Shown piece by piece: positions 12,824 to 18,530 of a stretch of 63,410 nucleotides of DNA; the stretch's first letter is position 1, and every line of letters starts with the position of its first letter. The stretch is from Flavipsychrobacter sp. GTDB taxonomy: Bacteria > Bacteroidota > Bacteroidia > Chitinophagales > Chitinophagaceae. The position numbers and the translations under genes are program-made. Below the pieces are notes generated by a model. The model saw nothing but the letters and a program-made list of their open reading frames with translations, was not told the DNA's origin and made no database searches. Location of the stretch: positions 1 to 63,410 of the forward strand of contig JAOQAP010000060.1 in NCBI GenBank assembly GCA_025963465.1, given 5' to 3'.

Positions 12824-13228
12824 ATGGCATTCGACCTGGAGCTTGAGTTTATATTATCGGGCAAGCCTAAGCGGGTGATGCAGTTGTTGACAGATCCGGT
12901 GCTGATAAGAAAATGGAGTGGCGGAGAAGCGGTATTTGAAAAAATGGTTGGCGGAAGATTTGAGATGTTTGACGGGTGGGTAACTGGCAAAGTGACCAAA
13001 GTAAGTGAAAATGAGCTGGCCTACACCTGGACGGCAGGAGACTGGGAGGATGGGACTCCTGCATCTGAAGTTCATTATTTATTGAAACCGGATGAAGCAG
13101 GTACAAAAGTAATAGTACACCATACAGGTTTCCCGAATGAGAAAGAAAGAGACAGCCATAAAACAGGCTGGACAGATTTTTTCTTCGACCCGATGGAAGA
13201 TTTTATTTTGATCATTGATAAAAGTTAG
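12824..13228 (+). CDS. AHSA1/SRPBCC (START-like) family protein
   Basis: A 134-residue protein of the SRPBCC superfamily with the AHSA1-like fold, a helix-grip cavity that binds hydrophobic ligands or client proteins. Visible elements are the LLTDPVLIRKWSGGEAVFEKMVGGRFEMFDGWVTGKV core and the C-terminal GWTDFFFDPMEDFI helix. No signal peptide is seen. It starts 2 bases after nuoE, so it is almost certainly co-transcribed with and possibly coupled to the complex I genes. A link to complex I assembly is only a guess from position. Confidence 0.8.
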   Translation: MAFDLELEFILSGKPKRVMQLLTDPVLIRKWSGGEAVFEKMVGGRFEMFDGWVTGKVTKVSENELAYTWTAGDWEDGTPASEVHYLLKPDEAGTKVIVHHTGFPNEKERDSHKTGWTDFFFDPMEDFILIIDKS

Positions 13229-13262
13229 ACCCCGACCCTAAAGGGAGGTGTTACGTAAACAG
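13229..13262 (+). repeat. REP-like element between the AHSA1-like and NTF2-like genes
   Basis: ACCCCGACCCTAAAGGGAGG followed by TGTTACGTAAA aligns with CCTCCGGCCCGAAAGAGGAGGTGGTGCGTAAA at 22757-22792. Both share CCC-x-AAAG, GAGGTG and CGTAAA. It occupies nearly the whole 39-base spacer. Confidence 0.5.
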
Positions 13263-13267
13263 AATAG

Positions 13268-13690
13268 ATGAAAGCTTTAGTAACCATATTATTCTTATTT
13301 GTAAGTGGCAGCTTATTTGCTCAGAAAGCAGATACTAAAGGGCTGGATAAGGCTATTGGCGACTTTGATAAAGCATTGATCGCAAGAGATTCTGTTGCGC
13401 TTAAACGCTTATTAAGCGACAACATTTTATACGGTCATTCTAACGGGTGGATAGAAACAAAAAAAGAGCTGATAGCTGATCTGTACAATGGTAAGTTGAC
13501 CTACACGTCAATAACACCTAAAATAGACAGTAAAACAACAGAAGGAAATACAGTAGCAGTAAGGTCATATGCAGAGATAGATTGTGTGATGGACGGCAAA
13601 CCACTTTCTTTTAAACTGAAAGTGCTGCAGGTGTGGGCAAAGAAGAATGGTAACTGGGAGTTGTTTGCAAGGCAGAGTGTGAAAATGTAA
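13268..13690 (+). CDS. Exported NTF2-like (DUF4440-type) protein
   Basis: A 140-residue protein with a signal peptide (MKALVTILFLFVSGSLFAQ) and an NTF2-like cone fold: the IGDFDKALIARDSVALKRLLSDNILYGHSNG start and the LQVWAKKNGNWELFARQSVKM end are typical of the DUF4440/SnoaL-like group. Such domains act as small enzymes or ligand binders, and no specific activity can be assigned. It is probably periplasmic, which makes its location between nuoE and nuoF odd, because both encode cytoplasmic subunits. Confidence 0.78.
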   Translation: MKALVTILFLFVSGSLFAQKADTKGLDKAIGDFDKALIARDSVALKRLLSDNILYGHSNGWIETKKELIADLYNGKLTYTSITPKIDSKTTEGNTVAVRSYAEIDCVMDGKPLSFKLKVLQVWAKKNGNWELFARQSVKM

Positions 13691-16285: not shown

Positions 16286-17359
16286 ATGCTGTTACTGCAA
16301 ATTGATACAGCGCTTATCATAGAAAAGCTCATCCTCATCACAGTTATACTGATGGGGTCTCTTGGTATTGCTATGTACGCCACATGGGGTGAGCGTAAGG
16401 TCTCTGCTATCATGCAGGACCGTGTTGGCCCTAACAGGGCAGGGCCATTTGGTCTGCTGCTGCCATTGGCCGATGGATTAAAACTGTTCTTCAAAGAAGA
16501 GATCATCCCTGACCGCTCAACAAGGCTCATATTTATACTTGGCCCATGCCTGGCCATGCTTACCGCTACCATGACGAGTGCGGTATTGCCGTGGGGCCCG
16601 GACTATGTAACTGCTAGCGGTCATGTGGTGTCATTACAGGTCGCAGATATCAATATAGGTATCCTGTTCGTATTTGGTGTAGTAAGCCTTGGCGTGTATG
16701 GCGTGATGCTGGGTGGCTGGGCGTCAAATAATAAATTCTCCCTGTTGAGCAGTATACGTGCAGCGTCGCAGGCCATCTCTTACGAGTTGGCTATGGGTAT
16801 CAGCCTTATCGCATTATTAATGATGACCGGTTCGCTCAGCCTGCGTGAGATAGTAGCTCAACAACATGGCTTCTGGAGCGATGGTTATTTTAGCTGGAAC
16901 TTCTTTAAGCAGCCTTTAGGGTTTATTATATTCTTCACCTGCTCTTGTGCAGAGTTGAGTCGTGCGCCGTTCGATCTTCCAGAGTGTGATAGTGAATTGA
17001 ACATGGGTTATCACCAGGAATATTCATCTATGAAACTTGGTTTCTACCTGTTCGCAGAGTATATCAACCTGTTCGTTAGCTCGGCTATTATGATCACCCT
17101 GTTCTTTGGCGGTTATAACTTCCCGTTCATGGACCAGGTTGCAGCGGCGGTTAACCCGATGTTGTTTACTGCTATTTGTGTAATGGTATTATTAACTAAA
17201 GTGATTGGTATGATCCTGTTCTTCATGTTCATCAGGTGGACGCTTCCGCGTTTCCGCTTTGATCAGCTCATGAAACTGGGATGGCGCTCACTGATACCAC
17301 TGGCATTGGTCAACATGCTGGTGACAGGAGTTGTGATATTGTGGGTGTTGAAAAAATAG
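16286..17359 (+). CDS. nuoH: NADH-quinone oxidoreductase subunit H
   Basis: Membrane subunit that joins the quinone site to the proton-pumping arm. The 357 residues contain about eight hydrophobic helices. The conserved DRVGPNRAGPFGLLLPLADGLKLFFKE loop is near residue 47, and the quinone-side loop SRAPFDLPECDSELNMGYHQEYSSM is near residue 230. The next gene starts 10 bases downstream but belongs to a toxin-antitoxin pair; nuoI follows that pair. Confidence 0.96.
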   Translation: MLLLQIDTALIIEKLILITVILMGSLGIAMYATWGERKVSAIMQDRVGPNRAGPFGLLLPLADGLKLFFKEEIIPDRSTRLIFILGPCLAMLTATMTSAVLPWGPDYVTASGHVVSLQVADINIGILFVFGVVSLGVYGVMLGGWASNNKFSLLSSIRAASQAISYELAMGISLIALLMMTGSLSLREIVAQQHGFWSDGYFSWNFFKQPLGFIIFFTCSCAELSRAPFDLPECDSELNMGYHQEYSSMKLGFYLFAEYINLFVSSAIMITLFFGGYNFPFMDQVAAAVNPMLFTAICVMVLLTKVIGMILFFMFIRWTLPRFRFDQLMKLGWRSLIPLALVNMLVTGVVILWVLKK

Positions 17360-17369
17360 GAGCAAGCAT

Positions 17370-17666
17370 ATGCTGACCGTGCAACAAATAAAAGATACTG
17401 TTACCGACTATTTTAAAGATAAGCCGGTCAGGAGCGTATATTTGTTCGGGTCGTATGCAAGAGGTGAAGCGCAGGAAAATAGTGATATAGATATTTTGTT
17501 TTCATTAAAAGAAGATACCCGGATAAGTTATTTTGGGATAGCAAAATATCTTGTTGATCTTGAAGAGAAACTTGCTAACAAAGTAGATCTTGTAGAAGAG
17601 GCGTTGATATATCCAAGAGTAAAAAAGTATATTGATGCAGATAAGATTCTTTTATTTTCTAAATAA
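17370..17666 (+). CDS. MntA-like minimal nucleotidyltransferase (antitoxin)
   Basis: A 98-residue minimal nucleotidyltransferase with the diagnostic GSx10DxD motif: G27-S28 in LFGSYARGEA and D39-I-D41, plus a third acidic residue in NKVDLVEE. In MntA-HepT systems this protein neutralises the HEPN toxin by AMPylating a tyrosine of the toxin. It ends by overlapping the ATG of the HEPN gene (AATAATGA), the standard arrangement. It lies 10 bases after nuoH inside the nuo operon. Codons and base composition look more AT-rich than those of the flanking nuo genes, which hints at acquisition; this was judged by eye only. Confidence 0.9.
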   Translation: MLTVQQIKDTVTDYFKDKPVRSVYLFGSYARGEAQENSDIDILFSLKEDTRISYFGIAKYLVDLEEKLANKVDLVEEALIYPRVKKYIDADKILLFSK

Positions 17667-18037
17667 TGAAGCAGAAGAAAGATGACATAGTGTATCTGGA
17701 ACTGATCAATAAAGGGATCGAAAGGATACTTGGATATATAGGTGATGCAGATGAAGAAGTTTTCTTAAGGGATAATATGATGAAAGATGCATGTTTAATG
17801 CAGCTTGTAGTAATAGGTGAAAGTGGTGGTAAGGTATCTGAAGAGAACAAGAACAGGTTTAAAGAGGTTGAGTGGCAGTTAATGAAAGCGGCAAGAAATT
17901 TTTTTGCACACGCTTATGAGCATACAGACTGGGTGAGGGTATATGATACAATTAAAACCATATTGCCTGATTTGAAACCCAGGATTGAACACATTATAGA
18001 GGTATTGGAAAAAGAGAACAATGGAAAAATTAACTAA
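17666..18037 (+). CDS. HepT-like HEPN domain toxin (DUF86)
   Basis: A 123-residue HEPN-domain protein of the HepT/DUF86 type. The RNase signature Rx4HxY is exact: R77, H82 and Y84 in AARNFFAHAYEH. In characterised pairs the arginine and histidine are needed for RNA cleavage and the tyrosine is the AMPylation target of MntA. It overlaps the antitoxin gene at its start, and its last 17 bases overlap the start of nuoI, so toxin and complex I translation are physically linked. Because all key residues are present, it is probably active. Confidence 0.9.
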   Translation: MKQKKDDIVYLELINKGIERILGYIGDADEEVFLRDNMMKDACLMQLVVIGESGGKVSEENKNRFKEVEWQLMKAARNFFAHAYEHTDWVRVYDTIKTILPDLKPRIEHIIEVLEKENNGKIN

Positions 18038-18530
18038 CAGAGCCCTGCAGATAGATCGCAGCCCAATGACACTGGGTGAGCGCGTATACCTGCCTGCCCT
18101 GGCCAAAGGCCTGAGCATAACACTGGGCCATATATTCAAAAAAACGGCAACCACCCGTTATCCTGAAGAAAAGCGCCCGTTCAGCCCGGTATTCCGTGGG
18201 CTGCATGTGCTCAACAGGGACGAGGAAGGCGCTGAGCGTTGCACGGCTTGTGGCTTGTGTGCGCTTGCCTGCCCTGCAGAAGCCATAACTATGGAAGCTG
18301 CTGAGCGTAAACCGGGTGAAGAGCATCTGTACAAAGAAGAGAAGTATGCGGCTAAATATGAAATAAATATGCTCCGCTGTATCTTCTGTGGTTTCTGCGA
18401 AGATGCCTGCCCTAAAGATGCTATTTACCTTACAGAAACGGTAATGCCTTCCAACTACAACCGCCAGAGCTTTATATATAAGAAAGACGACCTGCTGATT
18501 CCTCACCCTAAAAACACGGATAGCAAATAG
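18021..18530 (+). CDS. nuoI: NADH-quinone oxidoreductase subunit I
   Basis: Ferredoxin-like subunit with two 4Fe-4S clusters (N6a and N6b) that carry electrons towards NuoB. Both ligand sets are present: CTACGLCALACP (C74-C84) and CIFCGFCEDACP (C120-C130). It has 169 residues. The ATG at 18021 lies inside the end of the HEPN toxin gene in another frame, and no later in-frame ATG would keep the normal N-terminus. It ends one base before nuoJ. Confidence 0.95.
   Translation: MEKLTNRALQIDRSPMTLGERVYLPALAKGLSITLGHIFKKTATTRYPEEKRPFSPVFRGLHVLNRDEEGAERCTACGLCALACPAEAITMEAAERKPGEEHLYKEEKYAAKYEINMLRCIFCGFCEDACPKDAIYLTETVMPSNYNRQSFIYKKDDLLIPHPKNTDSK

Follow-up and report, generated by a model that had tools for sequence, protein, structure and literature searches.

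Two small genes of the window, by which we mean the whole stretch of 63,410 nucleotides from a Flavipsychrobacter species (Chitinophagaceae) analysed in this work, lie between the genes for two subunits of respiratory complex I. The upstream host gene is nuoH (16286..17359; PF00146, E = 3e-111) and the downstream host gene is nuoI (18021..18530; TIGR01971, E = 1e-40); all four genes are on the + strand. The first inserted gene (17370..17666) encodes a MntA-like minimal nucleotidyltransferase (MNT) of 98 amino acids, a putative antitoxin, and the second (17666..18037) encodes a HepT-like HEPN RNase of 123 amino acids, the putative toxin. MNT carries the catalytic motif GSx10DxD (17448..17492) as G27-S28-x10-D39-x-D41, which is invariant in alignment A2. 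HEPN carries the Rx4HxY motif (17894..17917) as R77-x4-H82-x-Y84, comprising the RNase site and a tyrosine, Y84, predicted to undergo AMPylation; residues R77, N78, H82 and Y84 are invariant in alignment A3.

The genes are tightly packed, and the antitoxin gene comes first. Ten bp separate the nuoH stop from the MNT start, MNT and HEPN overlap by one base (TAATG), and HEPN overlaps nuoI by 17 bases (18021..18037), where the last codons and the stop of hepT fall within the conserved nuoI start (codons for MEKLTN). This arrangement, the two exact motifs and the nesting of the pair within the nuo operon had been proposed in a preliminary description of the locus, and our analysis reproduced them, the layout to the base. 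No promoter of the pair scored above chance with a sigma-70 pattern on the pair's strand, and the Bacteroidetes pattern (TTTG/TAnnTTTG) was not found within the pair. As neither pattern supports a dedicated promoter, this possibility was rejected. No terminator was found on the pair's own strand, and the gene spacing makes co-transcription of the pair with nuo likely. The G+C content of the pair is around 0.33, compared with 0.42-0.53 across most of the flanking nuo sequence. An assembly artefact was discarded because the same gene order is found in independently assembled genomes, including that of the isolate Flavipsychrobacter stenotrophus RB1R16. Other HepT-like genes were not found in the genome to which the window belongs.

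The family assignment of both proteins was examined at the levels of profile, motif and predicted fold. Matches to Pfam families NTP_transf_2 (PF01909, E = 4e-15, MNT) and HepT-like (PF01934, E = 3e-17, HEPN) are far above chance. MNT also matches the NCBIfam model MntA_antitoxin with E = 2e-13, yet under the cut-off of the model. The NCBIfam equivalog cut-offs (NF047752, NF047751) are missed, at 50/60 bits and 22/60 bits; such cut-offs are a naming standard and lie outside the published class definition. By that standard both proteins would be divergent, non-equivalog members of HepT/MntA. A profile search of the PDB with HEPN retrieved Shewanella HepT (6m6u/5yep), and the AF2 model of HEPN (pLDDT 89) had HepT as its best Foldseek match (TM 0.66, probability 1.00), though at an E of no better than 0.007. 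The AF2 model of MNT (pLDDT 95) matched MntA best (7bxo; TM 0.80, E 2e-7). A class I HepT/MntA pair is, by definition, a PF01934 or PF08780 protein with RX4HXY adjoining a PF01909 protein with GSX10DXD (PMC7641770). The pair has these families, motifs and adjacency, together with the MNT-first order on one strand and the predicted folds of the class, and on the published sequence definition we classify it as class I HepT/MntA (type VII). The MntA/HepT-type assignment of the preliminary description is thus borne out by motif, family and predicted fold. By homology, the pair is presumed to be enzymatically active and its HEPN protein toxic.

The nuoH-nuoI junction was compared in the 33 Flavipsychrobacter genomes that have nuoH and nuoI on one contig. 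A MNT-HEPN pair is found at this site in eight of them including the window, and one (G031) has an extra MNT behind its pair. In all eight, both reading frames are open at this site and no catalytic residue is lost. The nuoH-MNT-HEPN-nuoI order is therefore present in relatives, and the nearest named relative that shows it is F. stenotrophus RB1R16. In that isolate (L104:3945-6370), HEPN of the nuoH-nuoI unit is frameshifted and MNT is open, and a second pair with both motifs is found at nuoG-nuoH. The HEPN stop lies inside the conserved first nuoI codons in 7/8 of the pair-bearing genomes of the genus. HEPN ends ahead of nuoI at four embedded pairs (L111, L112, L130 and L284), so that the notion that every embedded pair overlaps nuoI was rejected; the 17-base overlap is typical of the genus, not invariant.

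Many nuoH-nuoI gaps that look empty retain traces of the cassette. In a test based on 200 dinucleotide shuffles (with a floor of p = 0.005) and applied to about 30 sites, eleven such gaps matched the cassette at p<=0.01 (G001, G004, G005, G007, G010, G013, G014, G017, G018, G020 and G028). Because an outgroup genome (G038) likewise gave p = 0.01, single weak relics prove little. Two more gaps (G021/G034), which are candidate relics, match another part of the cassette. The clearest relic, in G017, consists of 80 bases from the beginning of MNT and the 25 terminal HEPN codons, with everything between them gone. A 3' relic by itself could be an old nuoI leader into which HEPN was extended; hence, the firm cases are those with a 5' relic of MNT (G017, G010, G007 and G014). 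The relics at empty sites indicate that the pair is probably old at nuoH-nuoI in the genus, and that internal deletions have removed it several times.

Replacement of the cassette was also detected. In the sister genomes G022 and G024, the NuoI proteins are identical (dN 0, dS 0.48) while their pairs differ widely (dN 0.45 for MNT and 0.43 for HEPN). Along the alignment, identity is around 0.8-0.9 as far as codon 25 or so of MNT, falls to mostly 0.4-0.6 in the core of the pair, and returns to 0.9-1.0 over roughly the final twelve HEPN codons and on into nuoI. The simplest reading is that the core was replaced by recombination through the conserved ends. Since even sister genomes can differ in which cassette they have, or in having one at all, the cassette appears to be dispensable for complex I.

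Intact copies bear marks of selection. Their dN/dS is roughly 0.07-0.35, compared with roughly 0.01-0.06 for nuo genes, with the caveat that the ratios are rough because they were obtained only where dS could be estimated and many dS values are saturated. Synonymous changes outnumber non-synonymous ones, which points to purifying selection on the intact pairs. Broken copies, in turn, show a one-sided pattern: at about 6-7 nuo sites, counted both within the genus and outside it, MNT is open where HEPN is disrupted or absent. These are found in G004, G007 and G020, at nuoH-nuoI in L104, at nuoG-nuoH in L117 and in the second unit of G031, and probably in G005 as well. An intact HEPN without MNT was not found at any nuo site in the genus and beyond. 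In these cases, which are few, HEPN has decayed ahead of MNT, as a toxic HEPN predicts; they bear on toxicity indirectly.

Insertions of this kind extend to other junctions of the nuo operon. An inserted ORF on the same strand was found at 46/350 nuo junctions in the 33 genomes of the genus, in a count that leaves out nuoE-nuoF. In four control operons, counted in around 20 of the 33 genomes, inserts were found at 0/711 junctions (S10-spc 0/340, ACIII-cox 0/109, dcw 0/222, atp 0/40). Fisher's test gives 9e-24 for the difference, a value that overstates significance as junctions that share an insert by descent are non-independent; about a dozen distinct pairings of insert type with junction nevertheless occur, and they point to that many separate insertion events. 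An apparent insert in the atp operon (the g2-g3 gap) was rejected, as it is atpE itself. The dcw operon replaced the histidine operon as a control because the genus lacks hisD: the gene was not found in the 23 genomes of the genus searched, and the same model matches 13/14 control genomes. Histidine auxotrophy of the genus is likely. There are few controls, their expression probably exceeds that of nuo or they are probably more essential, and the difference might reflect a tolerance effect. With these reservations, the nuo operon behaves as a recurrent insertion hotspot when compared with conserved operons of the same genomes, and the pair of the window is one instance of it.

Inserts occupy the A-B, C-D, D-E, F-G, G-H, H-I and L-M junctions, plus the gaps around two genes found at nuoE-nuoF. 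They include distinct lineages of MNT-HEPN, HicBA, Uma2, AAA_15/AAA_21 ATPases, PDDEXK_3, 23S_rRNA_IVP, aspartyl-protease-like ORFs and DUF2204, and are mostly toxin-antitoxin or defence-like. No recombinase was found among the representatives of nuo junction inserts scanned with Pfam. About 13 intact HEPN genes of the roughly 71 in the genus lie inside the 15-kb nuo operon, which makes up about 0.34% of the genome, an enrichment of around 54-fold over the expectation by length.

Several of these inserts deserve description. Positions 12824-13690 of the window, between nuoE and nuoF, contain an AHSA1-family gene and a DUF4440 gene. One or both are present in most genomes of the genus, and they look like older inserts. 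At nuoF-nuoG, a 338-358 aa AAA_15/AAA_21 ATPase is followed by a protein of 175-190 aa in six loci (L063, L074, L079, L080, L082 and L089); the partner found in G001 has no Pfam match, and the two genes are a candidate defence system. Four-helix proteins of the 23S_rRNA_IVP family, familiar from rRNA intervening sequences, are found at nuoA-nuoB and nuoL-nuoM (L085, L070 and others).

Pairs inside nuo are not confined to the genus. They were detected at K-L (L108), H-I (L117, Ferruginibacter) and E-F (L148) outside Flavipsychrobacter, and an order-wide draw of 199 genomes yielded further pairs at H-I (G189), F-G (G200, G112), L-M (G101) and E-F (G067). Altogether, Chitinophagales have MNT-HEPN pairs at at least six different nuo junctions. 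In a HEPN tree with 23 nuo rows and 71 from elsewhere (37 of them from the genus), limited by its 124 columns and by near-copies, the nuo rows need 4 label changes compared with 20.6 after shuffling. A single clade with support 99 unites ten rows that come from the H-I and K-L junctions of different genera. A second recurrent place is the site between miaB and a sigma-54 regulator, occupied in eight genomes of the genus (L269, L272-L278); where checked, MNT overlaps the end of miaB there. Other MNT-HEPN lineages are found at miaB and gltX sites, and nuo is not the sole recurrent place.

More than one explanation can be put forward for these patterns. One is that the pair is a now inert passenger that chance left stranded in the operon, where it decays. 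Deleted or broken copies in many relatives and a G+C content that differs from that of the host genes are as expected. The idea is, however, improbable: frames and catalytic residues are kept at nuoH-nuoI in the window and seven other genomes, synonymous changes predominate, and decay is one-sided, with the toxin ahead of the antitoxin. Less probable still, in our opinion, is that the nucleotidyltransferase pair took on the modification of a nuo subunit, or of some other protein of the host, instead of acting as a toxin-antitoxin system. Survival of MNT without HEPN at several nuo sites might be viewed in this light; however, toxin-first decay accounts for it too, every intact HEPN retains its motif, and swaps of the cassette core are independent of nuo.

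A functional tie between the pair and nuo has more in its favour, although we consider it unlikely. Transcription of nuo would supply a labile or ATP-dependent antitoxin, and failure of respiration, a drop in ATP or shut-off of transcription by a phage would leave HepT without AMPylation, leading to dormancy or death. Neutralisation consumes ATP (PMC7641770), the antitoxin comes first in a tightly overlapping arrangement, nuo is markedly preferred over four control operons (one of them respiratory too), and nuo HEPNs form nuo-specific clades, the clade of ten mentioned above spanning genera and junctions. The preference and the clades keep this explanation alive, and make a link of the pair to the state of the respiratory chain or to phage shut-off possible. 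A speculation with equally modest prospects is that some MNT-HEPN lineages have specialised in nuo: they would move between junctions and genera, sense nuo transcription or ATP, and release the RNase upon respiratory or transcriptional shut-down, for instance by a phage. Against a functional tie stand the repeated loss and decay of the pair with nuo intact, the presence of unrelated cassettes in the same operon, and the lineages at miaB and gltX. In its strict form, protection of the operon from deletion, as raised in the preliminary description, is contradicted by the many relatives that lack the pair or have relics of it and keep every nuo gene. Strict protection was rejected given that both clean and relic-bearing empty sites exist; as relatives deleted the pair yet kept nuo, the pair secures neither its own retention nor that of the operon.

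Repeated loss without harm to nuo leads us to favour a different interpretation, which we judge probable: the pair is a functional class I HepT/MntA module residing as a guest in the nuo operon, and the operon is a recurrent landing site where cassettes turn over rapidly. We infer that the guest is expressed by read-through, riding on nuo transcription and probably on the flow of nuo translation. The antitoxin would be made first, and MntA, using ATP, would transfer AMP onto Y84 of HepT and keep the RNase off, as judged by homology. Should MntA synthesis stop or fail, unmodified HepT would cleave RNA and growth would halt. Small toxin-antitoxin or defence-like cassettes enter nuo in line and recurrently, both in Flavipsychrobacter and in other Chitinophagales; between their conserved ends one allele gives way to another, inactivation strikes the toxin before the antitoxin, and deletion leaves nuo unbroken. 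The identity of the pair, the hotspot, the turnover and the order of decay can be read directly from the sequences, and enzymatic activity, toxicity, read-through and the benefit behind persistence are inferences. Persistence might be explained by addiction or by a selfish or defence benefit until the pair is replaced or lost. Complex I genes are kept in every genome that lost the cassette; hence, addiction does not hold it firmly, and its repeated loss from operons that are otherwise whole speaks against an essential role in respiration. The preference for nuo over other operons goes beyond what residence as a simple guest accounts for.

Toxin-antitoxin pairs are usually portrayed as stand-alone modules or as island cargo. 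A literature search, conducted largely outside the subscription journals, found no earlier report of such pairs inside nuo or other core operons, and a large survey of HEPN proteins does not mention nuo (PMC3710099). In the present case, a single core metabolic operon recurrently takes up pairs with known motifs, in line with its own genes and in a large number of species, and there the pairs are exchanged or disappear again. The genus thus offers, ready-made, sites that are occupied, swapped, partly decayed or empty, and the long debate on whether a chromosomal toxin-antitoxin pair is selfish or serves defence or regulation becomes testable at one fixed place. Why nuo, and not ribosomal, cell-wall or cox operons, becomes directly testable too.

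Comparison with known systems places the pair closest to HepT/MntA. Haemophilus influenzae HI0073/HI0074 (PDB 1no5/1jog) likewise combines two proteins, an MNT and a HEPN, that share these folds, and matches the pair more weakly than HepT/MntA does. In PADLOC, MNT matches five PDC-S09 models at E<1e-10, whereas HEPN has no match, and PDC-S09 is itself a candidate system. Shewanella oneidensis HepT/MntA (SO_3166/SO_3165; PDB 5yep, 6m6u, 7bxo; PMC7641770) shares with the pair the antitoxin-toxin order, both motifs, PF01909 and the predicted folds. Shewanella MntA transfers three AMPs onto the RX4HXY tyrosine in an ATP-consuming reaction that reduces RNase activity (PMC7641770), and Y84 of the window's HEPN stands for Y104 of Shewanella HepT. 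In contrast with the Shewanella system, the pair described here (around 14-22% identity in the structural matches) is embedded in nuo and overlaps nuoI at its 3' end. As in defence islands and integration hotspots, toxin-antitoxin and defence-like cassettes turn over at conserved places; unlike in those, the cassettes are spread over several junctions of a single housekeeping operon, in line with its genes, and no mobile element or tRNA site was seen.
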